From assembly GCF_021290385.1 (NCBI RefSeq), contig NZ_CP089928.1, positions 2,588,501 through 2,652,500 on the forward strand: 64,000 nt of DNA, read 5' to 3'. The position numbers were made by a program, and so were the translations under genes. The number at the start of each line of letters is the position of its first letter. Positions within the stretch are counted from its first letter, which is position 1. Source of the stretch: Microbulbifer sp. YPW16. GTDB taxonomy: Bacteria > Pseudomonadota > Gammaproteobacteria > Pseudomonadales > Cellvibrionaceae. Shown here piece after piece: positions 31,008-59,968 of this stretch. The notes under the pieces are model-generated. The model worked only from the letters and a program-made list of their open reading frames with translations, was not told the DNA's origin and searched no databases.

Positions 31008-31835
31008 ATGAAAGAGTTTACTTACCAGGACTACCTTCCCAATGAGCAGCTGAAGACGCTGGTGCGGGAGAGCGCAGAGGACTATCGTAGTGCGCTGCCG
31101 TTTGCCCATGGGGTATACGATGATGTGTTTTCACCCGAGGTCCTGAATGCGGTACTGGAAGAATTCGAGCGTGGTCAGAAATACTGGCGTGAATTCAATT
31201 CAAAGTATGAGAAAAAATTCCAGATGAGTTCGGACCTGAGCATGGGCCCGGTAACCCGGACTTTTATCCATACGCTAAATTCGGCGCCATTCCTTGAATT
31301 TCTCGAGCAGCTGACAGGCATCCAGGGACTGATTCCCGATCCCTACCTCCATGGCGCCGGCCTGCACAAAATACCGGCCGGTGGAAAGTTGGGGGTGCAT
31401 GTGGACTTCAACGGGCATCGCCGTATGAATGTCTACCGCCGTATCAACGTGCTGATTTACCTGAACAAGGACTGGCTGGAAGAGTGGGGGGGAAACTTTG
31501 AGCTGTGGTGCGCACGGGAGAAGGTTTGCAAGAAATCCATAGCCCCGATCTTCAACCGTATGGCGATTTTCTCCACCACCGCCAAGAGCTTTCATGGCCA
31601 TCCACACCCGCTGAGCTGCCCGGAGGATCGCCACCGTGTTTCCCTGGCGCTGTATTACTACACTGCCGGTGAACGGGGCGAGCAGAAAAAGGACCTTCAC
31701 AGCACAATTTTCCTGCGCGCCGATGGCAAGCAGGAGGAATTATCACGACAGCCAAAGGGCCTGGTCGCGAGGATCCGACGGGCATTGGTGAACAGGCTGG
31801 TCAGTAACAACGAGCAGGCCAAGCATGCCGGCTGA
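31008..31835 (+). CDS. 2-oxoglutarate/Fe(II)-dependent oxygenase in the polysaccharide locus
   Basis: 275 residues. Double-stranded beta-helix oxygenase with the iron-binding HxD at 131-133 (GVHVDFNGH), a distal His at about 196 (KSFHGHPHPL) and an Arg for 2-oxoglutarate at about 210 (DRHRVSLALYYY). This resembles the 2OG-Fe(II) oxygenase superfamily (prolyl-hydroxylase-like) found in polysaccharide loci. Its substrate might be a sugar or an amino acid substituent. First gene of a tightly packed block; its stop overlaps the next start by 11 bases. Confidence 0.8.
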   Translation: MKEFTYQDYLPNEQLKTLVRESAEDYRSALPFAHGVYDDVFSPEVLNAVLEEFERGQKYWREFNSKYEKKFQMSSDLSMGPVTRTFIHTLNSAPFLEFLEQLTGIQGLIPDPYLHGAGLHKIPAGGKLGVHVDFNGHRRMNVYRRINVLIYLNKDWLEEWGGNFELWCAREKVCKKSIAPIFNRMAIFSTTAKSFHGHPHPLSCPEDRHRVSLALYYYTAGERGEQKKDLHSTIFLRADGKQEELSRQPKGLVARIRRALVNRLVSNNEQAKHAG

Positions 31836-37353: not shown

Positions 37354-39591
37354 TCAGTCGGTGCCGGGAGCCAGGGGAATGGGATAGTCTTGCTGGATCG
37401 GTGTCCCGCAGTCAGTAATATCAGTGAAGATGCTGTCATCGTCCTGCAGCGGCGACCCATCCGGGGGGGTGCTATTGAGGCGGCACTCGGCGTTCACCGG
37501 GTTGAATTCGTTGCCGATTGCGACGATGTTGACACCACCGAGGCGTAACTGGGCCTGGTTCTGGTCGACCTGGTCCAGAAGGTACTCGTTATTGAAATAG
37601 CCTGAATAGAAATGACCGCCACTGAACTCCGTAAAGGAAGCTGAATCATGCTCAGGGTCCATTTCGGTATCATTGAAAATGCTGTCAAAGACAAAGTTGA
37701 AGTGCGGCGTGAAGTGATTGGAAAATGACTTGGGCCGAATATAGTTGGCCGGGTCACTGAAGTCTTCGGGGTTCTTGTTGATATCAACCTCATTGCCTGC
37801 GGCAGACTGGCGCAGTGTGAGTCGATGCTTGCCGCCCACGCCACCTATGTGGTTTCCGCGGAACCACACGTTCGATACCACCAGGCCCCAGGCACCCTGG
37901 AACCGCGCATTGTGCTCGATGGCTGTGCGGTTATCCACACCGGCTATACCACCATTGATCATCAGGCAGTTGTTCATACAGCCAATATTCACGTTGGGCA
38001 GGTTGTCCGGGTGCGCACGCTGGATGGAATCGGTGAAGAAGATTCCATAGGAAAGCGGCACCAGGTCGCAATCGAGTTCATCGGGGTTATTAATGCAGTA
38101 ATTGGTTGAATCACCGAAAGCAAACAGGCCGGGAAATTCACCACTGCCAGACCAGTCCAGGTCCAGGTCGTGCATGGTCACCAGCGTGGCAGACGTGCCG
38201 GTGATCGCGCTGCCAACCTTAAGCCCGGTGACGGTGTTGCCATAGGCCCACCCCTGGGTAATATGACCCTGGTCGTTCCTGGTGAGCATTGGGTATTCGC
38301 GGGCCTGGGTTGTACGCGGCACATCCAGGCAGCGATTGACCACACCGACTTGCACCACAGGTACAACAGGGCGTGAACCCTCCCCGTAGCGATCGATAGT
38401 GACATCGCGCTCCTGGTAACCGATGCAGATGTCCCCGAAACGTTCACCGGCGTGTAGCAGCACCCGCTTGCCGCTGTATTCACCCGCCAGCGGCACAGAA
38501 GTCTTCCGTTCAGCGCCCTGTGGACAGCCCGCGAAATCATTCGAGGGTGATACGCAAATCACATCACTGGTCGCGTAGAAGTTTTCCTGCGCGTGAATCT
38601 GGATAGTGACGAAATCGTCTGAGTAGACTCCGTCAGGTGTCTGGACCCTGACTCCCACCCGATACTCGCAGACTCCATCCTGGTATTTGCTGCTCTCTGG
38701 TGTGCAGGCAAATGTATGCAGCGCCCGGGGTGACGGACCGACCTGGCTGTTGCGGCTATTGCCCGTTGTCGCAAAGTTGCCCGAGTCGGGGTCGTCGAAG
38801 CTGAAGTGATATCGAAACCACTGGCCACTGGCACAGGCATCTGCATCGCTTCCACCGCTGAGGTCAGTACAGGCGGTGTCGGTGGAGTCCTGTGCAGAAA
38901 AATAAACTGTTTCCGGGGATATACCCACTGTCCGGGTCAGGGAGCGAAGGCGCGCGGTTACATCATCTGACTGGAGACCACCGTCACCTACCAGGACCGT
39001 GCGTTGGCGGGTAGTCTCGATCCCTGCGGAATCCTTGACCGAGTAGCGGACCCAGTATTCACCTGAAGTACTGGTATCGACATTTGAAGTCTGCGAAAGC
39101 AGGTTGGTAAGATCCCCGTCCTCTTTATCCTCCGCCATGGCACCTTCATCCTGGTAATCGGTGCCTACCGGAACCACGACCCTCTTGCTGCCCTTGAGTG
39201 TTATTGTCGGCGCAGTATTGTCCTCTACCACTACGTCGCGATTTGCCCTGGCAGTGGCGCCGGCGGAGTCCACCACGGTGTAGACCACGGTATAGGTGCC
39301 GGGTGCATACTCATCGATATCGTCGCCTTCGGTGGCGACCTGGTCACTGATGTCTCCGTCTTCTTCATCGACGGCAGAGAACCCCGGCTCCTCATAAGGG
39401 GTCCCATATGCCAGCGTCACCCGTGAACCTCCGGCAAGCGAAATAGTCGGCGGGGAATTACCACTGACGGAATCGGGTGGCGGTGCCACAGTTGTTGGTT
39501 TTTCGGAAGAATCATCCCCGCCCGATCCCCCGCCACCACAAGCACTGATAGAAGTGATCAACAGCAAGAGAATCGAACGCCTGAACATCAT
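37354..39591 (-). CDS. Large lipoprotein with two Ig-like domains and a beta-helix-like region
   Basis: 745 residues. Lipobox ISAC at residue 18 (after MMFRRSILLLLITSISAC), followed by a glycine-rich spacer. Two Ig-like domains follow at about residues 46-125 and 126-204 (PTISLAGGSRVTLAYGT..., PTITLKGSKRVVVPVGT...), each with an acidic D-x-D-G loop (EDGDISD, EDGDLTN) suggesting Ca2+ binding, like HYR/DUF5011 domains. The C-terminal half repeats Asn/Gly-rich short strands (NVNIGCMNNCLMINGGIAGVDNRTAIEHN) that suggest a right-handed parallel beta-helix as in polysaccharide lyases. Possible role: a lyase or surface adhesin acting on the polymer. Catalytic residues are not recognisable. Confidence 0.65.
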   Translation of the reverse strand: MMFRRSILLLLITSISACGGGGSGGDDSSEKPTTVAPPPDSVSGNSPPTISLAGGSRVTLAYGTPYEEPGFSAVDEEDGDISDQVATEGDDIDEYAPGTYTVVYTVVDSAGATARANRDVVVEDNTAPTITLKGSKRVVVPVGTDYQDEGAMAEDKEDGDLTNLLSQTSNVDTSTSGEYWVRYSVKDSAGIETTRQRTVLVGDGGLQSDDVTARLRSLTRTVGISPETVYFSAQDSTDTACTDLSGGSDADACASGQWFRYHFSFDDPDSGNFATTGNSRNSQVGPSPRALHTFACTPESSKYQDGVCEYRVGVRVQTPDGVYSDDFVTIQIHAQENFYATSDVICVSPSNDFAGCPQGAERKTSVPLAGEYSGKRVLLHAGERFGDICIGYQERDVTIDRYGEGSRPVVPVVQVGVVNRCLDVPRTTQAREYPMLTRNDQGHITQGWAYGNTVTGLKVGSAITGTSATLVTMHDLDLDWSGSGEFPGLFAFGDSTNYCINNPDELDCDLVPLSYGIFFTDSIQRAHPDNLPNVNIGCMNNCLMINGGIAGVDNRTAIEHNARFQGAWGLVVSNVWFRGNHIGGVGGKHRLTLRQSAAGNEVDINKNPEDFSDPANYIRPKSFSNHFTPHFNFVFDSIFNDTEMDPEHDSASFTEFSGGHFYSGYFNNEYLLDQVDQNQAQLRLGGVNIVAIGNEFNPVNAECRLNSTPPDGSPLQDDDSIFTDITDCGTPIQQDYPIPLAPGTD

Positions 39592-40764
39592 GAATACCTG
39601 GAGTTTTATGAAATGAAAATTACAGGAGGCCGTTCCGTGGTGTCACCCATCCAGAACATCTCACTGAAAAAGAATCTTAATAAGCACGGGCAGTTTCAAC
39701 CGAACTTTTGACCCTGCACCAAACAAGTTCAAAAACAGCAGCACAGGCCAGATTGAAACATCGTTTTGGGTGTCATTCTGACTTGAAGCTCTCTACTAGT
39801 CGCGGGTTCAAAGTCACCCGGGGAGAACCTATTGAGCCCCAGCCTTGAACAAAGTTTCCTGAGCCAGCCAGTTAGAACCGGCCACTGCTGGATCACCTTA
39901 AGGCCCTGGAACAACGCCAGCAGAAATGAGGGAAATATTATACCCGCCAGGAAAACAATGGTGCGCCCAGAAACCTGACCAAATTCACGAAACGGAAATC
40001 CAAGCCTGTACAAATGATTTAACTTGGTACTAAAGGATCGTCTTGAAGCCAAATGTGGTACGACAGTTCTTTCCATAAAAGTAGATCAAAAATTTATTTT
40101 ATGGGCACAGGAAAGAATTCAATTCTTGGCCTGTCCGCCGATGTTAAGCATGCCGGTTTACAGCGGAGCCTGACGTGCTGCCGTTGGGAGGCCGGCCATT
40201 TGCGCTGGCGGATACAGTCGCGCGGTCACAACGCGTCTCTGGTGTGCGGCTGCGCAGGAATTGTCCTGGATTTGCGCGGTACAGCAGGGACACAGATGCT
40301 CCCGGTGACCAATTACAGTGCGCTGCCAGGCAAGTTGTAATATCATGCATGCTGCGATCTGGGCGTCTCCTGGTTCGTCTGTTCAGTCGCATTTTCGTCT
40401 GTCAGGGAGGCTGCTTGGCAGCTTATATTCTGCCCTGGTGAGCCGCCTGGGATATCGAAGCTGACGGGGATGGGCATGGCAGGGACTGTTCTGTTGCTGC
40501 CCGGTGGATCGGGACGGCCTGTTAAAATTCCCGGGGGGGAGAGCCAGGCGATGGCCGGATTGACACTGGTCATAAACGATTAAGATGGCATGAGTATTGT
40601 ATGCTATCTATGCCCTCCGGCCGCTCCGGTTCCTGCAGAAGCGAACAATACTCAAAGGTTGGATCATAAGTTCTTATAGTTAAGAAAATAGGGAGCTGTA
40701 CCGCGCTCCCGTGATAATAGCGAATACCCGTCAATTGGATGACGTAATAAGCAAAGGGATCATC
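39592..40764. other. 1.17-kb intergenic region, AT-richer, with one doubtful open frame
   Basis: No convincing gene. A minus-strand frame at 39729-40076 encodes a hydrophobic protein (FLAGIIFPSFLLALFQGLKVI) that could be a remnant of a membrane glycosyltransferase; its start is just after an in-frame stop, so it is not a truncated longer gene. Another frame at 40053-40340 (plus) has no coding signature. A short hairpin GGGAGC / GCTCCC with 8-base loop lies at 40691-40710 upstream of the sulfotransferase. Confidence 0.4.
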
Positions 40765-41787
40765 ATGTACGCAAAGGGAGCTGCTGTAGAGACCGCCCAG
40801 GGAACGGATAATTGCAATCTCAAAAAACCTGTCCGCGAAAGACTGCCAGATTTTTTTGTAATCGGTGCCATGAAGTCAGCTTCGACTTCTCTGTATTTCT
40901 ACCTTGAGCAGCATCCGGACGTTTTCCTGCCGGCCCGGAAAGAGCCAGAGTATTTTTCCTTTCGCTACGGATCCAGCACTGATTACGCCTGGTACCTTTC
41001 GTTGTATGAGGGGGCAAAGCCAGGGCAGGTTTGTGGTGATTGTTCGACCGGATACTCCAGGGGGCTGGATGAACACCATGTCCCCGCTCGCATAGCCCGG
41101 CAAGTTCCCCATGCGAAAATAATTTACCTGCTAAGGAATCCGGTAAAACGGGCCTGGTCCCATTACGTCCATCGTATGAATGAGCGTGTTTCAAGCGGAC
41201 AGCCAGTACTGGAATTTGCGGAAGCTGTCCGTGAATACCCGGATATTATCGATGCAGGTCGCTATGCGAAGTGCCTGAGGAAGTACCTTGAATACTTCCC
41301 GCTGCGCCAGATAAAGGTTTTTATCCTCGATGAATTATTGGCCGATCCAGCCGCACATGGCAGGGAATTGGATGAATTCCTAGAGGTTGAACATGTACCT
41401 GAACGGCAGTTTTCCCGCAGTAATGTCGCAGGACAGTGGAACAAGGAAAAAAAGCTGGCTGCCTGGATGGAGCGGCTTGAGGGCAGTACCTTGGGAAAGG
41501 TCATGAAAAAGATCCTGCCCCGGTTTATCCGGTCAAGGATCCGTGGTGGCCTTCGTTCCAGTAAATGGGTCAGGGCTATTGCCGAGAAACGGACAAAGAC
41601 TGTCGAGTTGCCCAAAGAGCCGCCGCTGGAGTTGCAGGACTGGCTCCGGGGTGCCTACAGGGACGAAATGCGGGCATTGGAGCAGTTACTTGGCAGGCCA
41701 ATACCATCCAGCTGGCTGGGTGACAGCGAGCATGAGCAGCCAAGCGGGGGCGTCAACCCCGGGGAACCATTCTTGCGGGCCAGCTGA
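40765..41787 (+). CDS. Sulfotransferase of the PAPS-dependent type
   Basis: 340 residues. The 5'-phosphosulfate loop is IGAMKSASTSLYFYLEQHP, and the 3'-phosphate-binding region reads IIYLLRNPVKRAWSHYVHRM (R-N-P-x-x-R-A-x-S-x-Y), both diagnostic for PAPS sulfotransferases. It would sulfate the polysaccharide or a sugar precursor in the cytosol or at the membrane. The start is ATG 40765 (MYAKGAA), which follows AAAGGGA; GTG 40711 in the same frame is less likely. Convergent with the flippase. Confidence 0.85.
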   Translation: MYAKGAAVETAQGTDNCNLKKPVRERLPDFFVIGAMKSASTSLYFYLEQHPDVFLPARKEPEYFSFRYGSSTDYAWYLSLYEGAKPGQVCGDCSTGYSRGLDEHHVPARIARQVPHAKIIYLLRNPVKRAWSHYVHRMNERVSSGQPVLEFAEAVREYPDIIDAGRYAKCLRKYLEYFPLRQIKVFILDELLADPAAHGRELDEFLEVEHVPERQFSRSNVAGQWNKEKKLAAWMERLEGSTLGKVMKKILPRFIRSRIRGGLRSSKWVRAIAEKRTKTVELPKEPPLELQDWLRGAYRDEMRALEQLLGRPIPSSWLGDSEHEQPSGGVNPGEPFLRAS

Positions 41788-41825: not shown

Positions 41826-43193
41826 TTATCCGGACGCGGCCAGTGATAACGATAGCTGGCCGATATAGCCCGGAAGCAGCGTTGCCAGGGGCGTGGTAAA
41901 AAGCAGGCCGTCGATCAACAGGACCTTGCGCGTAAAGTAAGGCATTGCCACTAGTATGGTAAGGATGCCTGCCAGGAGTTGGGCGGCTGCGGTAGCGCCT
42001 ACAACATGAGCACTGTCACCGTACCGGAATGCAAGTAGCATTCCCGCAGCCAGGGTGCCGAACTGTATTAGCCTGACGAGGAAAACTCGCCGAGAATCAG
42101 CGTTACCTTTCAATACTGGAAGGTAGAGTGCGGTGACAATGAGCCCACCTGAACCCAACGCAATAACAGAGAGGAAATCCGCAACGGTTTTAAACTCTGG
42201 CGTGTAAAGTATTTCCACCAGTATTTCAGAACAGTACACCAGCCCAGTGATTACGACGATCGATATCGCAAGGATAGCGGCGCGTATCCTGGCGGACTGG
42301 AGCTCGCTGTCATGGTTGCCCTTGTTTCTGCAGTATACCGGGAACAACCATTTCTCACTGAACTCACGTAAAACCATTGCCAGGACAAGGCCTATATTCG
42401 AGGCAATGGCAAAAAAACCGAGAGCAGTTGGCAGAAGGAAAAAGCTGAGAGCGAGCTTGTAACCATCCCTGATCGCCCAGGTTACGATTGTCGCAGGGAG
42501 CATCCACTTGCCATAATCCAGGATTGTCTTTATTGCGCTTCGCTCAAGGCAAATACGATTAGAGATGCCGGGCAGTACCTGGTGTGTAAGGAGTACAGTC
42601 AGGCACATGGCGATCGCATTCGCCCATAACACTGAGCCCGCATTGGGCCAGAAATAGCACAGCAGGATTGCCACAAGCAATGCGAAGAGTCTCTCCACGA
42701 GCACGATGGCCGCAGGACCCGCGGGTCTTACCAACTTTTCCTGCTGAAACACTTTTGTGGACGTAAACCCGGTCAGGAGCGCGGTCAGTGCACATATCCT
42801 CAGGTAATTATCGATATTCGCAATTCCCGGGTACAGCCGGTGCACGAAAAAAGAAGCTACGAGCAGGGCCATAGCGACCAGCAGGTACTGCGCGATACGT
42901 AGTGTCCAGGCCGTATTGACATACTTTGGATCTGCCATGCCGCGATCATTATTAATGATGCTGCCGCGAAGGCCAATTTCGGAGCAGAGCGTAATCAGGC
43001 CGGTAATGGTGGATACGACCAGTATCTCACCAAAAGCCTCTGGAGCCAGGAGGCGGGTAAATATAATAGTAGAAACCAGGCGCAGGAGTATCGACGCTCC
43101 CTGGGACGCAAGCACTATGCCGGCGCTGCCTGTGAGCAGGGGGATCGACGCCTGGAGATAGGCAATCCGTCCACGAATCGGTTCTGTCAGCAT
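41826..43193 (-). CDS. Polysaccharide flippase, Wzx-like (MATE/MVF superfamily)
   Basis: 455 residues with about 12 to 14 hydrophobic helices in the order of Wzx transporters (GSAGIVLASQGASILLRLVSTIIFTRLLAPEAFGEILVVST is a canonical first segment with RLLAPEAFG). It would flip the undecaprenyl-linked repeat unit to the periplasm. ATG 43193 was chosen; the longer frame to 43568 has no TM start. It follows the acyltransferase by 17 bases on the same strand. Confidence 0.85.
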   Translation of the reverse strand: MLTEPIRGRIAYLQASIPLLTGSAGIVLASQGASILLRLVSTIIFTRLLAPEAFGEILVVSTITGLITLCSEIGLRGSIINNDRGMADPKYVNTAWTLRIAQYLLVAMALLVASFFVHRLYPGIANIDNYLRICALTALLTGFTSTKVFQQEKLVRPAGPAAIVLVERLFALLVAILLCYFWPNAGSVLWANAIAMCLTVLLTHQVLPGISNRICLERSAIKTILDYGKWMLPATIVTWAIRDGYKLALSFFLLPTALGFFAIASNIGLVLAMVLREFSEKWLFPVYCRNKGNHDSELQSARIRAAILAISIVVITGLVYCSEILVEILYTPEFKTVADFLSVIALGSGGLIVTALYLPVLKGNADSRRVFLVRLIQFGTLAAGMLLAFRYGDSAHVVGATAAAQLLAGILTILVAMPYFTRKVLLIDGLLFTTPLATLLPGYIGQLSLSLAASG

Positions 43194-43210
43194 AAGGACC
43201 TGGTAATTCT

Positions 43211-44404
43211 TTATTGCGGGCCGGTGGCCTGGGTGGTTCCCTTGCCGGGAGGCACTGATTTCGAGGTCATCAGTCGGGATACGACGTAGGGCTTGAAAGC
43301 AAGTAACGGTCTCTCGATCAAGTGCCAGGAAACGTAAGCAAGGCTGAAGGCCATTAGATACAGGAGGCCGGTATAGAGCATTGTTTCCCGCTGTAGCTCC
43401 ATGTTTACTTGCAGCAGAAGCCAGGACAATATGTGAGTAGCAAATGCATGATAGATATACAGTCCATAGCTGATTCGTCCTATCAGCCTCAGGTTTCTTG
43501 CGCGTAAAAAGTGACTGCCCCTGCTCGCCCCTGGCAAATTCACCAGCAATATAACCACAGTGGCGCAAATGAGAGCGAGTACACTATCGAACAGTGCCAG
43601 ATAGAGCCGCACAGCGGTATCCTGCCAATACAGGACAAGCAAACCCGATGCCACGATCGCACAGCAAGTGCATGCGGTCCTGATATATTTTTTCATTGGC
43701 TGGCGAACCGGCAGCGAGCCTCGCTGGTAGAGTGCTGCCAATGCGCCAAGGCACAGCGAATCCATCACACCGGGAAGAAGCATCAGGCCGGTATGTGGGT
43801 AACTGGGATCCAGGATAAAGATACAAAATATGCGCCATGCCGGTGCAGCAGCCACCGCGGCGCATAGAACCCAGAAAAGTGTATGCCGGGTCAAAAGTAC
43901 AGCGAGCAATGGATAGAGCAGGTAAAACTGCTCTTCAATTGCCAGCGACCAGAAATGAGCAGTGGATGGATGGCGTAGTATTGTGCCGGCATCCGTTGTG
44001 ATATAGCGAACGCCATCCAGGTTGGAAAGATATGCGAAGTGCCAGCCGGAAACATCCCGGAATCCCTGAAAATCGATCAGGTAGAGAAGTATGATTGTCA
44101 GGTAGTAAATAGGAAAGATGCGCAGGGTGCGGCTGGCGTAGAATTTATAGAATACCTTTGAGGGAGAGATCCCCCAGGTACTGGCTTTATCCAGATCCAG
44201 CAGTAACACGCTGGTGATCAGGAAACCGCTAAGGACAAAAAACAGCCTGACACCAATATGCCCCAGGCCCAGGTGGCTGACAAAATCGAGAGAAGCCGGT
44301 CCCAGGCCAAAATGGCTTACAAGCACAAGCAGTATGGCAACACCGCGGAGGCCTTCCAGCTCCGGCACGAACCCATGGGAATTTGCGGCGGTTGGGTTGT
44401 TCAT
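43211..44404 (-). CDS. Acyltransferase family 3 (OafA/YrhL-like)
   Basis: 397 residues. N-terminal ELEGLRGVAILLVLVSHFGL and FFVLSGFLITSVLL are the acyltransferase-3 signatures, with the H in VSHF as expected catalytic or acceptor residue. Ten or so membrane helices follow, and a late YGLYIYHAF. Such enzymes add acetyl or other acyl groups to sugars. Its start overlaps the stop of the NRPS-like gene by 4 bases (TGA/ATG), so both are translationally coupled. Confidence 0.85.
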   Translation of the reverse strand: MNNPTAANSHGFVPELEGLRGVAILLVLVSHFGLGPASLDFVSHLGLGHIGVRLFFVLSGFLITSVLLLDLDKASTWGISPSKVFYKFYASRTLRIFPIYYLTIILLYLIDFQGFRDVSGWHFAYLSNLDGVRYITTDAGTILRHPSTAHFWSLAIEEQFYLLYPLLAVLLTRHTLFWVLCAAVAAAPAWRIFCIFILDPSYPHTGLMLLPGVMDSLCLGALAALYQRGSLPVRQPMKKYIRTACTCCAIVASGLLVLYWQDTAVRLYLALFDSVLALICATVVILLVNLPGASRGSHFLRARNLRLIGRISYGLYIYHAFATHILSWLLLQVNMELQRETMLYTGLLYLMAFSLAYVSWHLIERPLLAFKPYVVSRLMTSKSVPPGKGTTQATGPQ

Positions 44405-47400
44405 GGGGAAAGGTTGTTCGCTTGTGCGGCTACCTGCCGCGGCGGCGTACCAGACGTAATAGTGGCAGAGTGTCCACGAGCTGGCTCACTTTGAATTACC
44501 CTGGCGATATGCTCCACATTTCCCGCCCGCAGGATGCCAATATGGTTCCCGGGAACGTCATACACACTCACACTCCGGGTGCGGCCGCTCCAGCCCAGGA
44601 AGGTGTCCCCGTGGTAGCCATAAAGTGATTCCCTGTCTGTCGCTTTGAACAGCAGGATATCCAGGTCGAAGTATTCGTCGTGAAAGTGATCCAGTGCACG
44701 CCGGCGAGCCTGCTCACGGGGATCGCTTGTCGCCGGGTCTTTCCGTCGCAGGACATACTTGCGTAAGGCTTGCTTGAATTTCCTGGGCAGGCTTGCGGAA
44801 TCCATGCTTGAGTCAACGCTTCGCGGATACCAGCTATCGAACAATGCAAGCAGGCGTACCTCTTCACCAGCCGCTTGCAGGCGGCGGCCGACCTCAGCGG
44901 CTATCAGCCCACCGAAAGATGCACCGCAGAGATAATAGGGGCCCACAGGCTGGTCCGCAGTGATTTCCTCTATGTACCGTTCGACAATCATGCCGAAATC
45001 GGTGATTGAAGTATTCTCATCTTCCGTGATGCCGGCAGTGATTATGTTGGCTTCCTCTGGCAGGGCGACTCCGCAGACACGCCAGTCGCCACCCAGTGCA
45101 TTGGCAAGGTCACGGTACTGCAGGATGCCGTTACAGCAATACAGAGTCCTTGTTGCCTGGCTATTTCGGGTGAGCTCATTGACTGCACGCCGGTCGTCTG
45201 CGGTTGCGCCACTGTCAATGACGGCGGCCAGCTGCGCAATACTGGGTGACGTCAGCAGGGTGCGCAGTGGCGGGGCGAAGCCATAGGTGCGCGCCACTTC
45301 GCTAAGCATGCGGACAGCTTTCAACGAGTTTCCGCCGAGGTCAAAAAAGCTGTCATTAATACTGAAATCCAGCTCGGGAAAGTAGGTGCACCAGATCCGG
45401 TAAAGGCACTCTTCAGTCGACGAGGTCGGGAGCGCGGCAACAGTGCCCGTATGTAAAGAGTTCGCCCTGGATGGTGAAGGGAGCCTCTTTCTGTCAACCT
45501 TGCCATTAAAGTTGGTGGGCAAGTAATCGAGCGCTACAAAATGTGCCGGAACCATGTAGGCCGGTAGCTGCTTGGCCAATGCCGTTGCCAGCTCTGTCCG
45601 GGAAAGGGATATGCCATCTGCCATAACCAGGTATGCAACCAGCTGCGTGGATTTGTTGTCCCCTGGAGACCAACCCGAGACTACAGCCTGCTGAATACCC
45701 TCGAAAGACTTCAGGAGCAGCTCAACTTCCTGCAGTTCCACTCGATTCCCATCAATCTGGACCTGGAAATCATTACGGCCAAGTAATTCAATATTTCCGT
45801 CAGCGTCAAACCGCCCGATGTCACCGATAGCAAAGAACCTTGCCCCATCGATCATGCGGAATTTATCGCGATCTGTTTCAGGGCGATTGATATATCCGGG
45901 TACTACGCCGGGACCGGAGAAATGCAGTTCGCCGGGAGCGCCCAGAGGTACCGGGTTACCATAGGAATCCAGGATCTTTACACGGGTATTGGGGAATGGC
46001 TTGCCGACCCGTGTCCGTTGCAGTTTTCGGTCCCTGCGCACCTCGTAGGTGCAGCCCAAGCAGCTGATTTCACTGGAGCCGTAACACACGTAAACCTGCG
46101 CCATCGGGAATACAGATTTGGCTCGCTCCAGAAGTTCTGGTGGCACCATATCCCCGCCGCTGATAACAGTCGTTACTCCACGGGTGATTGCTTCGCCATC
46201 CCCGTTGTCTTCCAGCGAGTCCATTATCCTCGCGAGCAATGACGGGACGGCATGAATTGCGCTCGCGCCTCCAATCGAAAGGCATAGTTGCTCGCTGTCG
46301 AGGAAAGCTTCCTTTGAGAGAATCGCTACGCTGCCACCGGCACGGAGGGCGGTTAGCATTTCAAACATGCTGATGCTGAAGGTGCTTCTGGCCATGGAGA
46401 CGAAGTGGTCATCCGCAGAAAAGCCGTAGCGCTCGATTGCTGCTGAGAGGCAATGGTCCAGGTTGCGATGTGTAGCCAGTATCCCCTTGGGTATGCCGGT
46501 AGTCCCGGACGTAAAGAATACGTGGGAATAATCGTTGTAGCTGGCAACAGTTTCCGGGGCCGGGACAGCCTGGCGGGTAGCGAGGTCCTCGATATCGCGG
46601 GTGAGAACCGTATGCCTGACCAGCGAATGTATGCCCGCATCACTTTCATGGCTGGTGATGGCAAACCCCAGGTCCAGCTGATCACATACTGCCTGTAGGC
46701 GCGCAGCGGGGAATTCTGTATCCAGTGGTACATAAATGGCACCCGCCTTGTGGATCCCGAGCAGGCAGGCAACGTTCAGGTGTGAGCGTTCAATATAAAC
46801 ACCAACGTAATCCCCCCTGCCTACACCGGCCTGCGTTAGTACCGATGCAACCGCATTGGCCAGGTTGTCCAGCTCAGCATAGGAAATCTCCCTCGTCCCA
46901 TTCAGAATTGCGGTACTGCAGGGATTGGCTTGGGCATGGTCAGCGACAGCCTCAAAGAGCAACGCGCTATTGTGAGATAAACAACAGGGGCTACCGAAAT
47001 CCGCCTGGATCAGGCGCTCATCCTCACCAACAATGTCCAGCGACTCGTGCAGGAACGAGTCGCCTGAACGATGCCGACGCGCGAATGCCGCCACATACGT
47101 GTCGAGCCGGGTGACTTCCTCGATCTGCCTGTTTCCGCTCTGTACAAGCCAGCAGGCGTCTGGTGCGCGGTCTGATAACCACAGGACCGGTTGGCCCCCC
47201 GCGACAGAGATGAGCTGGCGCAGTGCCGGGGTTTCTGTGCCATAAGGCATCTCCGGGGCGATTATTACGTGTAGCGGCAGCGTTGTTGCTTCACCGGCTG
47301 GTGTAACCGGGCGGCGATCCGTTGCGTGCTGTAACTCGTAGTGAATAAGCTCACAGAGCTTGCGGAAATCCTTGCCTTCGATGTCATCGATAACAATCGA

Positions 47401-47691
47401 GTGGAGCTGGCGCTCAGGTAATAAAGAGCAATGGATAGCCAGCCGGGTGGACCTGTTGAGCCTGAATCCGGCAGCAGCCACAGCTGCCAGTACCATGGCG
47501 ATGCGCTGGGTGGTAGAGTCATATTCACGCAGGAAACTGGCAAAGCTTGCCTCGAGCAGGGTGATGGGATCCGGTATTTCCATGGGCCCCGTCTGCGGCC
47601 GGGAACCGGACCGGGTAGCCGAACCGGCCCCGGACCCTTCTCCGGAAACTGTTTCCGGGAGGTCACCGGTAATTTCAATCGGGTAAGCCAT
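44401..47691 (-). CDS. NRPS-like protein: adenylation - carrier - thioesterase
   Basis: 1096 residues. Residues 1-240 resemble a degenerate C-terminal half of a condensation domain (no HHxxxDG). The adenylation domain (about 245-735) has A3 VFFTSGTTGIPKG (391-403), A5 YGSSE, A7 FAIGDIGRFDADGN and A10 NGKVDRKRLP. The carrier Ser is S789 in FFDLGGNSL. The thioesterase has GASFG (S925) and GNH (H1050). At the position of the Asp that holds the amino group in amino-acid-activating domains (44 residues after S395, as in GrsA), the residue is Ser 439 (FSIS), which suggests an aryl, keto or hydroxy acid substrate. ATG 47691 has AGGA about nine bases upstream. Confidence 0.85.
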   Translation of the reverse strand: MAYPIEITGDLPETVSGEGSGAGSATRSGSRPQTGPMEIPDPITLLEASFASFLREYDSTTQRIAMVLAAVAAAGFRLNRSTRLAIHCSLLPERQLHSIVIDDIEGKDFRKLCELIHYELQHATDRRPVTPAGEATTLPLHVIIAPEMPYGTETPALRQLISVAGGQPVLWLSDRAPDACWLVQSGNRQIEEVTRLDTYVAAFARRHRSGDSFLHESLDIVGEDERLIQADFGSPCCLSHNSALLFEAVADHAQANPCSTAILNGTREISYAELDNLANAVASVLTQAGVGRGDYVGVYIERSHLNVACLLGIHKAGAIYVPLDTEFPAARLQAVCDQLDLGFAITSHESDAGIHSLVRHTVLTRDIEDLATRQAVPAPETVASYNDYSHVFFTSGTTGIPKGILATHRNLDHCLSAAIERYGFSADDHFVSMARSTFSISMFEMLTALRAGGSVAILSKEAFLDSEQLCLSIGGASAIHAVPSLLARIMDSLEDNGDGEAITRGVTTVISGGDMVPPELLERAKSVFPMAQVYVCYGSSEISCLGCTYEVRRDRKLQRTRVGKPFPNTRVKILDSYGNPVPLGAPGELHFSGPGVVPGYINRPETDRDKFRMIDGARFFAIGDIGRFDADGNIELLGRNDFQVQIDGNRVELQEVELLLKSFEGIQQAVVSGWSPGDNKSTQLVAYLVMADGISLSRTELATALAKQLPAYMVPAHFVALDYLPTNFNGKVDRKRLPSPSRANSLHTGTVAALPTSSTEECLYRIWCTYFPELDFSINDSFFDLGGNSLKAVRMLSEVARTYGFAPPLRTLLTSPSIAQLAAVIDSGATADDRRAVNELTRNSQATRTLYCCNGILQYRDLANALGGDWRVCGVALPEEANIITAGITEDENTSITDFGMIVERYIEEITADQPVGPYYLCGASFGGLIAAEVGRRLQAAGEEVRLLALFDSWYPRSVDSSMDSASLPRKFKQALRKYVLRRKDPATSDPREQARRRALDHFHDEYFDLDILLFKATDRESLYGYHGDTFLGWSGRTRSVSVYDVPGNHIGILRAGNVEHIARVIQSEPARGHSATITSGTPPRQVAAQANNLSP

Positions 47692-47922
47692 AAGCCACAT
47701 TCCTGTGAAAATATCCTGGACGTCGTCCCTGTCCATCCAGCGCCCCGGGCTGTGCAGGGTGCTGGAAAAGCCCTGGCCGCAGCCAGTTATTCTAAGCCCC
47801 TGTTCCACGGATGTGGGACGGAGCTGATTACATTTTATTACGGAAAGCCGCCCCCCCGGACCTTATGCCGGGCTGCAACGGGAACCGGCTCAGCCGGGGA
47901 GCTCACGGGGTAGGGGAACCGG

Positions 47923-48612
47923 TCAGGCAGTGGCGAGTGCGTCGGTAGCTGAAGCTTTGGCAGATGTTTTCTGCTCCGCAACTTCCGGCTGCTCGGTGCG
48001 TTTCACCACAGTGGGCTGCCACTGGTCCGGCATCGCGGCAAAATCGGTCAGCGAAGAAACGTCACCGCGGTTGCGGGCATCCTCAATACGCTGGTAAAAA
48101 TTTTTGCCGGTATTCTGGGGGACATCCGTATTCAGTTCGGCACCTTCCTTCCCTCCACGCGGCCGCTCTACATATTCCGGGAACGACATCTGTGATGCCT
48201 TCAGGGGGGCATAGCCCTTGCCGAACAGTTGCTTCAACTTGCCGAAGCCATCGTCGTTGACCAGTTGCCGGCCACGGAAATTAACTCCCTTGGACATGGC
48301 GTGACCGACAAACCCCTCAAGACTGTCGGTATCAAAGGCAATATGCTGGACGCTGTGGTCACCGTGCAGGTCGACAAATTCCGTAACCTGGCTCTTCTTC
48401 TTGCGATCAATGCCTTCAACCAGGACGACCCCAAAACTGTCGAAGTCAATGCACCAGAGTTTCATGCTGCTTTCGGGGTCATCGGGTCGTACATCCGGGA
48501 CGATCTTGGATACGGTCCCGCCCTCGATTTCGGTGTGGTACCAGCCCCATTTCTCAATCATGCCGGTTGATACGGCATAGGTGATGTGGTCTACGCGGTT
48601 GACCTTGGACAT
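47923..48612 (-). CDS. VOC-family protein like the C-terminal half of HPPD
   Basis: 229 residues. The iron-binding triad typical of HPPD is present: H9 (RVDHITYAV), H90 (VQHIAFD) and E146 (FPEYVER, matching FFEFIQR of HPPD). The spacing 9 to 90 is close to the 162 to 241 spacing in the hppD of this window. The N-terminal half of HPPD is missing, so it is a single catalytic module with an Ala-rich tail (EQKTSAKASATDALATA). It is on the same strand 231 bases upstream of the NRPS-like gene. Likely Fe(II)-dependent oxygenase or related lyase with alpha-keto-acid-like substrate; the reaction is not known. Confidence 0.75.
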   Translation of the reverse strand: MSKVNRVDHITYAVSTGMIEKWGWYHTEIEGGTVSKIVPDVRPDDPESSMKLWCIDFDSFGVVLVEGIDRKKKSQVTEFVDLHGDHSVQHIAFDTDSLEGFVGHAMSKGVNFRGRQLVNDDGFGKLKQLFGKGYAPLKASQMSFPEYVERPRGGKEGAELNTDVPQNTGKNFYQRIEDARNRGDVSSLTDFAAMPDQWQPTVVKRTEQPEVAEQKTSAKASATDALATA

Positions 48613-57305: not shown

Positions 57306-58403
57306 ATGGCCGATTTGTTTGAAAACCCGATGGGCCTCGACGGCTTTGAGTTTGTCGAATTTACCGCGCCGGAGAAAGGCATCCTCGAAACCGTATTTAC
57401 GGCCATGGGCTTCTCCAAGGTGGCCCGCCACCGCACCAAGGACGTCGAGCTGTGGCGCCAGGGTGACATCAACTTTATTACCAACTACGAGCCGGGCAGC
57501 CACGCCGACTACTACGCCCGCGAGCACGGCCCGTCCGCCTGTGGCCTGGCCTTCCGCGTGAAGGACGCCACCTTCGCCTACAACGAGGCGATCAAGAAGG
57601 GCGCCCAGCCGGTGGAAGTGGAAACCGGCCCGATGGAACTGCGCCTGCCGGCCATCAAGGGTATCGGTGGCGCCACCCTGTACCTGATCGACCGTTACAA
57701 GGAAGGCGAGTCCATTTACGACATCGACTTCCACTGGCTGGAAGGCGTCGACAAGCATCCGGAAGGCTGCGGCTTCCATACCCTGGACCACCTGACCCAC
57801 AACGTCTATCGCGGCCGCATGGACTACTGGGCCAAGTACTACGAAGACCTGTTCAACTTCCGCGAGATCCGCTACTTCGACATCAAGGGCGAGTACACCG
57901 GCCTGCTGTCCAAGGCCATGACTGCGCCGGACGGCAAGATCCGCATCCCGCTGAACGAAGAGGCAGCCGGTGGCGGCGGCCAGATCGAAGAGTTCCTGAT
58001 GAAGTACAACGGCGAGGGCATCCAGCATATCGCCTTTGCCTGTGACGACCTGATCAAGTGCTGGGACCGCCTGAAAGAGCAGGGCATGGAATTCATGACC
58101 CCGCCCCCGGAAACCTACTACGACATGCTGGAAGAGCGCCTGCCGGGCCACGGCGAGCCGACCGAAGAGCTGAAGGCCCGCGGCCTGCTGCTGGACGGTA
58201 CCACCGAGGGCGGCCAGCCGCGCCTGCTACTGCAGATCTTCTCCGCCAATATGCTCGGCCCGGTGTTCTTCGAGTTTATCCAGCGCAAGGAAGACGAAGG
58301 CTTCGGCGAGGGCAACTTCAAGGCACTGTTCGAGTCCATCGAGCGCGACCAGCTCAAGCGCGGCGTGATCGGTGACAAGAAAGAAGACAAGCCGGAGGCC
58401 TAA
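57306..58403 (+). CDS. hppD: 4-Hydroxyphenylpyruvate dioxygenase
   Basis: 365 residues. Fe(II) ligands H162 ([14 protein letters not shown]), H241 ([10 protein letters not shown]) and E323 (FFEFIQR) are all present, and the two VOC domains and C-terminal helix fit HPPD. It converts 4-hydroxyphenylpyruvate to homogentisate in tyrosine catabolism. ATG 57306 follows GGAGG by five bases (57296-57300). First gene of an operon with the VOC gene starting immediately after its stop. Confidence 0.96.
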
Positions 58404-58964
58404 ATGGGCATCAAGCGTATTCACCACGTGGCCTACCGCTGTCGCGACGCCAAGGAGACCGTGGAGTTTTACCGCGATCTCCTGGGCATGGACTTCCAGC
58501 TGGCCATCGCCGAAGACAAGGTTCCCTCCACCGGGGAACCTGACCCGTACATGCACATCTTCATGGATGCGGGGCAGGGCAACGTCCTGGCGTTCTTTGA
58601 GCTGCCCAACTCCCCGGATATGGGCCGCGACCAGAACACCCCTATGTGGGTGCAGCATATTGCGCTGGAAGTGGAGAGCATGGACGAGCTGCTGGCCATG
58701 AAGCAGAAGCTCGAGGATGCGGGAATCGATGTGCTCGGGCCCACCGACCACACCATCTTCAAGTCCATTTACTTCTTCGACCCGAACGGGCACCGTATCG
58801 AGCTCGCCGCCAACACCGCCGAGCCGGGCATGCACGAGGAGCTGAAGCGGGTAGCGGAAGACATGCTCGAAGAGTGGTCCCGCACCAAGAAGGCACCGCG
58901 GCACGCCGCCTGGATGCACGGTGAGGGCGAATTCAATCCGAATACAAAAGGGGAGGCACAGTGA
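58404..58964 (+). CDS. VOC-family protein in the tyrosine operon
   Basis: 186 residues, starting directly after the hppD stop. Glyoxalase-fold: HHVAYRCRDAKETVEFYRDLLGMDF, VQHIALEVESMDELLAMKQKLEDAG and FFDPNGHRIELAANT, which carry possible metal ligands His 7 or 8, His near 92 and Glu in GHRIELAA. Its exact reaction is unknown. It sits between hppD and a fumarylacetoacetate hydrolase; the homogentisate dioxygenase and maleylacetoacetate isomerase genes are not seen here, so it could fill one of those steps, or be a glyoxalase. Inference only. Confidence 0.7.
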   Translation: MGIKRIHHVAYRCRDAKETVEFYRDLLGMDFQLAIAEDKVPSTGEPDPYMHIFMDAGQGNVLAFFELPNSPDMGRDQNTPMWVQHIALEVESMDELLAMKQKLEDAGIDVLGPTDHTIFKSIYFFDPNGHRIELAANTAEPGMHEELKRVAEDMLEEWSRTKKAPRHAAWMHGEGEFNPNTKGEAQ

Positions 58965-59968
58965 AGTTAGCCAGCCTTAAATCCGGCCGCGACGGCAAGT
59001 TGGTCGTGGTCTCCGAAGACCTGTCCCGCATGGCGCCGGCCGGTGATATTGCACCGACCCTGCAGGCCGCACTGGACAACTGGGAGCAGGTTTCCGGCAA
59101 GCTGGAAAAACTGCACGCGCAACTGGAAAGCGGCGAAGTGGCCGGCGAGGCCTTCGACCAGGCCCAGTGCCACTCACCGCTGCCGCGCGCCTACCACTGG
59201 GCCGATGGCAGCGCCTACGTCAATCACGTGGAGCTGGTACGCAAGGCCCGCGGTGCGGAAATGCCCGAGAGCTTCTGGACCGACCCGCTGATGTACCAGG
59301 GCGGTTCCGACACTTTCCTGGCTCCCCGTGAGCCGGTGAAAATGCCGCAGAGCGAGGGCTTCGGCATCGACTTCGAGGCCGAGATCGCCGTCATCACCGA
59401 CGACGTGCCCATGGGTGTTTCCCCCGAGGATGCACTCAAGCACATCAAGCTGGTAATGCTGGTGAACGACGTTTCCCTGCGCGGCCTGATCCCGAACGAA
59501 CTGGGCAAGGGTTTCGGCTTCTACCAGTCCAAGCCGTCCAGCGCCTTCTCGCCGGTGTGCGTCACCCCGGACCAGCTGGGTGACAGCTGGAAAGAGGGCA
59601 AGCTGCACCTGCCGCTGGTATCCGAACTGAACGGCAGCAAGTTTGGTGAGCCGAATGCCGGCGTGGACATGACCTTCCACTTCGGCCAGCTGATCGCCCA
59701 CGCCGCCAAGACCCGCCCGCTGGGCGCCGGCACCATCATCGGTTCCGGTACCGTGTCCAACAAGCTGGACGGCGGCCCCGGCAAGCCGGTCAAAGAGGGT
59801 GGTGTTGGCTACAGCTGTATCGCCGAGATCCGCATGATCGAGACGATCCAGGACGGCAAGCCCAGCACCTCCTTTATGGGCTTCGGGGACAGGATTGCCA
59901 TCGAGATGCTGGACGACAAGGGCCAGTCCATCTTCGGTCGCATCGAGCAGACGGTGGAGCAGGTGTAA
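58961..59968 (+). CDS. Fumarylacetoacetate hydrolase family protein
   Basis: 335 residues. FAH-fold motifs: GIDFEAEIAVITDDVPMG (metal Glu), LVNDVSLRGLIP, KPSSAFSPVCV and GAGTIIGSGTVSNKL. It hydrolyses fumarylacetoacetate to fumarate and acetoacetate at the end of tyrosine catabolism. It starts with GTG 58961, overlapping the VOC stop (GTGA) with GGGGAGG upstream. Terminator at 59987-60019 ends the operon. The length is that of the short bacterial type. Confidence 0.88.
   Translation: MKLASLKSGRDGKLVVVSEDLSRMAPAGDIAPTLQAALDNWEQVSGKLEKLHAQLESGEVAGEAFDQAQCHSPLPRAYHWADGSAYVNHVELVRKARGAEMPESFWTDPLMYQGGSDTFLAPREPVKMPQSEGFGIDFEAEIAVITDDVPMGVSPEDALKHIKLVMLVNDVSLRGLIPNELGKGFGFYQSKPSSAFSPVCVTPDQLGDSWKEGKLHLPLVSELNGSKFGEPNAGVDMTFHFGQLIAHAAKTRPLGAGTIIGSGTVSNKLDGGPGKPVKEGGVGYSCIAEIRMIETIQDGKPSTSFMGFGDRIAIEMLDDKGQSIFGRIEQTVEQV

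Follow-up and report, generated by a model that had tools for sequence, protein, structure and literature searches.

Introduction

Enzymes that combine an adenylation (A), a carrier (T) and a thioesterase (TE) domain, such as RalA, AtrA and the fungal quinone synthetases, join or cyclise aryl pyruvates by means of their TE. Adenylation and carrier functions are also found in the Dlt pathway (DltA, DltC, DltB, DltX, DltD), which carries out the D-alanylation of teichoic acids. The available part of PMC12148441 describes a carrier-protein thioester as the acyl donor of DltB, and assigns the acyl-shuttle motif FXYXXF to DltX and to MBOATs partnered with SGNH proteins. Here we analysed a stretch of 64,000 nucleotides from Microbulbifer sp. 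YPW16 (the window; the genome is a single contig of 4.19 Mb), in which a gene for an A-T-TE enzyme resembling nonribosomal peptide synthetases (NRPS) follows a VOC-family gene related to 4-hydroxyphenylpyruvate dioxygenase (HPPD). The two genes recur side by side, and the pairing of an aryl-acid type A-T-TE enzyme with an HPPD-type oxygenase is well supported. That they form a two-gene module which makes and activates an aryl acid, the acyl group being passed in Microbulbifer to exopolysaccharide, we rate as just short of an even chance. The genes concerned are as follows.

47923..48612, minus strand: half-HPPD VOC gene, 229 aa, a single VOC unit corresponding to the C-terminal, iron-binding half of HPPD
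44401..47691, minus strand: A-T-TE NRPS-like enzyme; open reading frame from 47808, likely start at the ATG at 47691
46954..47691, minus strand: N-terminal extension of the A-T-TE enzyme, probable condensation-domain remnant from a MAFFT alignment with cyanobacterial homologues
45481..46941, minus strand: adenylation domain with pocket SIFSIGCCLK; the Ser478 codon (46375-46377) occupies the GrsA Asp235 place
45217..45381, minus strand: carrier (T) domain with GGNSL phosphopantetheine site
44491..45123, minus strand: thioesterase domain with GASFG nucleophile motif, Asp and His present
43211..44404, minus strand: acyltransferase-3 (AT3) membrane O-acyltransferase, PF01757

Transcription on the minus strand would thus run from the VOC gene (48612-47923) through the A-T-TE gene (47808, likelier 47691, to 44401) and AT3 (44404-43211) to a flippase gene, the start of AT3 and the stop of the A-T-TE gene overlapping by 4 bases.

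Pairing across genomes

The VOC gene is present in 13 of 48 Microbulbifer genomes, 12 of which have the A-T-TE gene adjacent to it. The exception is G347, whose VOC gene is interrupted by in-frame stop codons and has no A-T-TE gene at its side. Searching the same 48 genomes with the A-T-TE enzyme gave 13 strong matches followed by a gap in E-value (3.6e-108 to 2.8e-94), and these matches are the 12 VOC-paired genomes plus G358. The first-pass annotation of the window had proposed a link between the two genes and had regarded an NRPS-like gene kept without the VOC gene as a sign against it. G358 is the sole such case in Microbulbifer: instead of a half-HPPD it has a full-length HPPD (334 bits) directly downstream, 40 bases from the A-T-TE gene, the other HPPD of that genome being 1.2 Mb away.

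Outside the genus, the VOC scan of 84,980 species genomes gave 17 loci, i.e. 6 from Microbulbifer, 4 from cyanobacteria and 7 others, with L101 and L102 shortened by contig ends. An A-T-TE gene was found inside the fetched 10 kb in 5 of the 6 Microbulbifer loci, 3 of the 4 cyanobacterial loci and none of the 7 others. Gene calling missed the VOC genes of G342 and L103, and absence of the A-T-TE gene was rechecked by tblastn. In the case of G993 and G944, the same kind of A-T-TE enzyme stands beside a full HPPD in exopolysaccharide loci; a second copy in G944 begins 0.8 kb from a contig end, with a downstream neighbour that is not HPPD and the upstream side beyond the contig. In G327, which belongs to another genus of the family, the A-T enzyme ends in a different hydrolase; a full HPPD is encoded on the opposite strand at a distance of 0.9 kb, with one hydrolase gene between the two. 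It is important to add that the cyanobacterial and G327 loci were found via the VOC gene, so that there the pairing is tested in one direction, while the loci of Microbulbifer, G358, G944 and G993 were also found via the A-T-TE enzyme. Among 386 sampled cyanobacteria the VOC gene was detected at 1e-20 in one, which is the starting genome itself, and it had no match at 1e-5 on plasmids or phages. Likewise, none of 552 plasmid records matching the A-T-TE enzyme has a region covering 80% of the query; the best 40 of the 552 have identities of 26.8-34.0%, and most of them carry an NRPS annotation.

Prephenate dehydrogenase produces 4-hydroxyphenylpyruvate. Two of the three cyanobacterial A-T-TE loci hold O-methyltransferase and prephenate-dehydrogenase-like genes between the VOC and A-T-TE genes, and in the third a prephenate-dehydrogenase-like gene directly follows the VOC gene; this neighbour therefore points to a source of 4-hydroxyphenylpyruvate in the cyanobacterial loci. 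Two further neighbours were noted. Directly downstream of one cyanobacterial A-T-TE gene lies an esterase with PHB-depolymerase-type Pfam matches (L097:3846-4862), and the A-T-TE and HPPD genes of G944 are directly followed by a 296-aa protein with no Pfam match, possibly a GNAT-like acyltransferase as judged by eye (L155:5862-6752).

Altogether, what the first-pass annotation had observed is confirmed, and is stronger than first stated; its interpretation is partly supported. The recurrence of the pairing in distant bacteria suggests a pathway to an aromatic acid, perhaps attached to polysaccharide.

The A-T-TE enzyme and its pocket

The open reading frame of the A-T-TE gene (44401-47808) has 1135 codons from a GTG. 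The true start is likely the ATG at 47691, residue 40 of the reading frame, because a close relative in G362 starts there too; Ser478 of the reading frame becomes Ser439 when numbered from this ATG. Pfam detects AMP-binding (5.2e-72), AMP-binding_C, PP-binding (4.5e-12) and Thioesterase (2.7e-20), with no Condensation domain and nothing in the N-terminal region, so the condensation-free architecture had been read correctly. The N-terminal region of about 245 residues aligns with the condensation-domain remnant of the cyanobacterial homologues, in which Pfam recovers only the end of Condensation, and it is absent in 9 of 12 Microbulbifer homologues (898-929 aa) and in G358. From this alignment, the extension is a probable condensation-domain remnant. 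The catalytic Ser, Asp and His of the TE are present in Microbulbifer. As a side observation, the three cyanobacterial homologues (L093, L094, L097) all have Cys (GxCxG) as the nucleophile, and the aligned Microbulbifer sequences have Ser.

The A-domain motif FSIS aligns with FDIS of LgrA, and its Ser takes the place of GrsA Asp235, in agreement with the earlier claim that Ser439 replaces the residue that anchors the amino group. By comparison, 17 further NRPS A domains were sampled in the genus, and all have Asp at this place. A pocket for a non-amino-acid substrate is thus supported as a prediction. A tree was built from 50 A domains, of which 49 came from loci and one is a copy of the window domain; L168 was dropped as it could not be aligned. 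In this tree, 20 domains of SIF type and the window copy form a single clade (support 0.945) with no other sequence within. All 20 sampled members have the Ser and 'SIF', whereas 28 of the 29 other A domains have Asp. The nearest outsider, L157, has Ser in another pocket and no HPPD gene within 20 kb.

An HPPD-family gene lies within 2.5 kb of 19 of the 20 clade A domains, the partner being a half-HPPD in 12 Microbulbifer and 3 cyanobacteria and a full HPPD in 4 loci. Pockets next to half-HPPD read SIF[ST]LGNCMK (10 Microbulbifer), SIFSIGCC[LM]K (window and G362) and SIFSFGLSLK (3 cyanobacteria). SIFSSGICMK goes with full HPPD and is found in L139, L154, L155 and L156; G358 has SIFGSGLCMK. L139 groups with the cyanobacteria (0.941) and L154, L155 and L156 group with G358 (0.928), so that one pocket occurs in two separate clades. 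Support is lacking (0.059) for the node that unites the half-HPPD groups of cyanobacteria and Microbulbifer, and the tree therefore leaves the order of events undecided. Because the pocket code tracks the half or full HPPD partner, our reading is that the pocket follows the partner enzyme and that the A domain would bind the product of the oxygenase.

Wider searches with the A-T-TE enzyme scored two candidates per genome. At class level, 30 of 369 genomes exceeded the threshold with 41 matches, 40 of them outside the window; the locus was looked at for 11, of which 10 could be aligned, all with Asp, and L168 could not. At order level (390 genomes), 7 were over the threshold, 3 of them outside Microbulbifer: G944 and G993 with the SIF code and a full HPPD, and G1113, which has Ser but the pocket SILAWGAGLK and no HPPD gene in 20 kb.

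The first-pass annotation had compared the enzyme with the keto-acid enzymes RalA and AtrA. As far as the available part of PMC10316625 states, A domains for alpha-keto acids carry Val at code position 1, and the Ser at this position in 20 of 20 clade members speaks against the analogy. By that code the enzyme is predicted to stand outside the alpha-keto-acid family, and RalA/AtrA-type dimerisation, considered as a leading reading, was set back to an alternative on the Ser code, the comparison being made through the Val rule and not through an alignment. The available parts of two studies on fungal A-T-TE enzymes (PMC9047271, PMC12105029) give no code for bacterial enzymes.

The half-size dioxygenase

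Against the HPPD profile TIGR01263 (4HPPD), the window VOC protein scores 38 bits (1.2e-9; cut-off 277) over positions 155-263 of 353. This covers about one third of the profile, entirely in its second half, and the protein is not a full-length HPPD with two VOC units. Pfam gave nothing at 1e-3, Glyoxalase appearing only at E 0.03. In an alignment of 16 VOC sequences, window included (44 to 87% identity to the window copy), the putative iron ligands His9, His90 and Glu146 are invariant in all 16. This agrees with the HPPD iron triad that had been proposed for a VOC protein directly upstream on the same strand. The AlphaFold model has a mean pLDDT of 63, with values below 50 at residues 113-129 and 131-173, the region of Glu146. 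In this moderate-quality model the chain forms two beta-alpha-beta-beta-beta repeats with a C-terminal helix, and HPPD and hydroxymandelate synthases come out as its best matches in the PDB.

Aligned with full enzymes, the half-HPPD keeps SQ and QH but lacks two residues of the HPPD motif IPLNE, Pro and Asn. This pair, which we take to be a mark separating HPPD from hydroxymandelate synthase, is also gone in the full-length L145, from a likely hydroxyphenylglycine cluster as judged by eye, and in the shorter half-enzymes L142-L144. Since Pro and Asn are missing as in these proteins, a hydroxymandelate-type product is favoured as a first guess, and the pocket would be closer to hydroxymandelate synthase than to HPPD. 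The half-size proteins L142, L143 and L144 (161-178 aa) deserve a remark of their own: they are encoded beside aminotransferase, FMN-dependent/Ldh_2 dehydrogenase and NRPS-type genes (Pfam run on L142 and L144), a set presumably akin to HmaS-Hmo-HpgT. This context suggests that hydroxyphenylglycine is supplied by way of a one-domain hydroxymandelate synthase.

Adjacent acyltransferases and a possible pathway

In all 12 Microbulbifer pairs the next called gene after the A-T-TE gene encodes a membrane O-acyltransferase, of three kinds: AT3 in the window, G362 and G369; an AT3-SGNH fusion in G376; and an MBOAT followed by an SGNH-like gene in eight. Families were assigned by BLAST and one of each kind was checked with Pfam; the AT3 of the window matches PF01757 at 99.4 bits (cut-off 31). 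The G338 MBOAT, the one searched, matches DltB structures at 4.7e-32, and FLYFNF at the end of all 8 MBOATs corresponds to the FXYXXF motif. Of the 48 genus genomes, 8 have the SGNH-like gene, exactly the eight of MBOAT type and thus not the window, and its GSNS and DTEYH motifs are invariant in these 8 relatives. Fold matches of the protein are weak (pLDDT 62): the top match is a designed scaffold at 1.1e-3, SGNH esterases follow from rank 3 and PatB at rank 49. A PDB sequence search with it gave nothing useful, the best E being 0.048. The three kinds are swapped at one position, as a shared acyl-transfer step would predict.

These observations can be put together in a pathway. The half-HPPD would oxidatively decarboxylate 4-hydroxyphenylpyruvate to an aryl hydroxy acid, with 4-hydroxymandelate as first guess and homogentisate where the locus has a full HPPD; the identity of the acid is a guess. 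The Ser-type A domain, whose architecture and pocket are observed, would then activate this acid and load it onto the carrier domain. In Microbulbifer, the acyl group would finally pass to the adjacent membrane O-acyltransferase and on to exopolysaccharide outside the membrane, a step modelled on the handling of D-alanine by DltA-DltC-DltB-DltD. The TE domain might assist this hand-over or strip wrong acids. From the earlier proposal of a product linked to or coexported with the polymer, the linkage is kept and narrowed to an O-acyl bond that would be made by the membrane acyltransferase.

We consider it an even call whether the exopolysaccharide is esterified in Microbulbifer. The more specific picture is tentative and somewhat doubtful: a Dlt-like aromatic decoration of a Gram-negative exopolysaccharide with interchangeable AT3, AT3-SGNH and MBOAT plus SGNH, and a pocket that co-evolved with the oxygenase, giving a new code for homogentisate or 4-hydroxymandelate. 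If true, an NRPS-like carrier enzyme and a tyrosine-pathway oxygenase would place phenolic groups on exopolysaccharide. Such esters, especially of hydroquinone type, could make a biofilm matrix redox-active, let it bind metals, cross-link it or shield it from UV. A further consequence would be that half of HPPD is able to work alone, that the A-domain code has a new substrate class, and that an undescribed gene set of marine bacteria and cyanobacteria is explained. Among the matches listed, titles or abstract openings do not describe the combination, most subscription journals lying outside the coverage.

Weighing of alternative explanations

Several observations weigh against such a module. 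The VOC gene stands without an A-T-TE gene in 8 of the 17 species-genome loci (up to 10 kb on each side), in addition to the decayed Microbulbifer copy, and the VOC family therefore has another role outside the module, where the substrate is probably an aromatic keto acid. Of the 7 loci outside Microbulbifer and cyanobacteria, 6 have the VOC gene next to a divergent Lrp/AsnC regulator (L096, L098 and L099 are closely related to one another, and gene calling was poor in L103); L095 has it with an aminotransferase. Microbulbifer already has a full HPPD besides the half-HPPD. The latter lacks the first half of HPPD and the Pro/Asn pocket residues, so its catalysis is a prediction. Given the cyanobacterial Cys, the role of the TE may differ across the clade. 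We know of no Dlt system with a TE, and a TE in cis would be expected to release the acid. The AT3 protein OatA uses acetyl-CoA and not a carrier thioester, according to the available parts of PMC9558356 and PMC12148441. Lastly, acyltransferase homologues (E <= 1e-3) were not found in 12 to 40 kb around the other eight clade members (3 cyanobacteria, G358, L139, L154, L155 and L156), and therefore the context suggests the acylation step in Microbulbifer only.

This last result, the shared A-T-TE architecture and the intact TE residues would also fit a module that yields a small aromatic metabolite, in which the TE joins or cyclises two aryl-acid units, the product is released and the acyltransferases only acetylate the polysaccharide. 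We regard this as unlikely, though worth keeping in mind: code position 1 is Ser as opposed to the Val of alpha-keto-acid enzymes, an O-acyltransferase of one of three kinds comes next in every Microbulbifer locus, the 40 genus genomes that lack an MBOAT-type locus also lack the SGNH-like gene, and an acetylating enzyme would need no A-T enzyme. A clearly improbable alternative is that the A domain directly activates 4-hydroxyphenylpyruvate or another acid, while the HPPD-type enzyme is a side gene that detoxifies or trims the tyrosine pool. The regulator-linked VOC homologues, arranged like a catabolic gene, are in line with it, but replacement of half by full HPPD together with a change of pocket is better explained by a producer-consumer pair, and the Val of known aryl-pyruvate enzymes is absent.

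The neighbourhood could also reflect common descent or hitch-hiking, i.e. unrelated genes inherited jointly in an exopolysaccharide hot-spot. An exopolysaccharide sugar transferase (E <= 1e-90) is present in 29 of 48 genus genomes, mostly without the module, and the ordinary HPPD of the genus lies inside the fetched stretch, apart from the module, in 12 of 14 regions (exceptions G369 and G358); because of the latter, we weighted this explanation up and the module down. Even so it is very improbable, since the pairing is also seen in cyanobacteria and other gammaproteobacterial families with different surrounding genes, and since the A-T-TE gene is missing in G347, where the VOC gene is broken. 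A role of the VOC protein in place of HPPD in tyrosine breakdown via homogentisate was considered as well. It was prompted by the five VOC genomes without A-T-TE that were searched (G420-G424), which have no full HPPD above the cut-off. HmgA had no match there either (E <= 1e-3), which makes this role doubtful, though four of the five are metagenome assemblies.

Surroundings of the module

The exopolysaccharide location, together with the acyltransferase, flippase and sulfotransferase named in the first-pass annotation, was recovered by Pfam and by the export block on the other strand. The remaining features are:

41826..43568, minus strand: Wzx-type flippase, PF13440; start codon uncertain
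40711..41787, plus strand: sulfotransferase-family protein, PF13469
49175..55470, plus strand: exopolysaccharide export block (sugar transferase, beta-barrel porin, Wza-like, Wzc-like, CpsB/CapC-type phosphatase)
57306..58403, plus strand: full-length HPPD, a gene distinct from the half-HPPD, 400 bits (cut-off 277)

The export block lies just upstream of the minus-strand module, and the full-length HPPD 9 kb away. A promoter and terminator scan of the window gave counts close to those of shuffled sequences. Immediately ahead of the glycosyltransferase genes of the locus is a 2OG-Fe(II) oxygenase-family gene (31008-31835), and inside the locus a large protein with two bacterial-surface Ig-like domains is encoded (37354-39591), which has a homologue in the G362 locus. 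Downstream of this full-length HPPD, within 57306-59968, come a VOC-family gene (58404-58964) and then a fumarylacetoacetase-like gene (58961-59968). HmgA had no match in the window genome or in four other Microbulbifer searched, and this VOC-family gene could be an unrecognised homogentisate ring-cleaving enzyme.

Comparison with known systems

In the case of HPPD and 4-hydroxymandelate synthase, the half-HPPD shares the predicted fold, the putative His-His-Glu ligands and the C-terminal half; it differs by having one VOC unit instead of two, by the missing pocket Pro and Asn and by its 38 bits against a cut-off of 277. The half-size VOC proteins L142-L144 likewise have a single HPPD-family unit without the Pro/Asn pair, but they belong to another subfamily in a hydroxyphenylglycine-type NRPS context. 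RalA, AtrA, GreA and the fungal quinone/furanone synthetases resemble the A-T-TE enzyme in lacking a working condensation domain and in a probable aromatic substrate linked to 4-hydroxyphenylpyruvate. In contrast to them, it has Ser where they have Val, an HPPD-family partner and no sign of dimerisation.

The likeness to the Dlt pathway consists of an adenylation and a carrier domain, fused here, and in 8 relatives these are encoded together with a DltB-like MBOAT carrying the acyl-shuttle motif and an SGNH-like protein. On the other hand, A and T are fused with a TE, an HPPD-type oxygenase stands beside them, and the setting is a Gram-negative exopolysaccharide locus; in the window, AT3 takes the place of a DltB-like MBOAT with FXYXXF. 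Moreover, Ser replaces the amino-acid-binding Asp, so that activation of the D-alanine type is not predicted. The module does not count as a Dlt system, but could function in a similar way.

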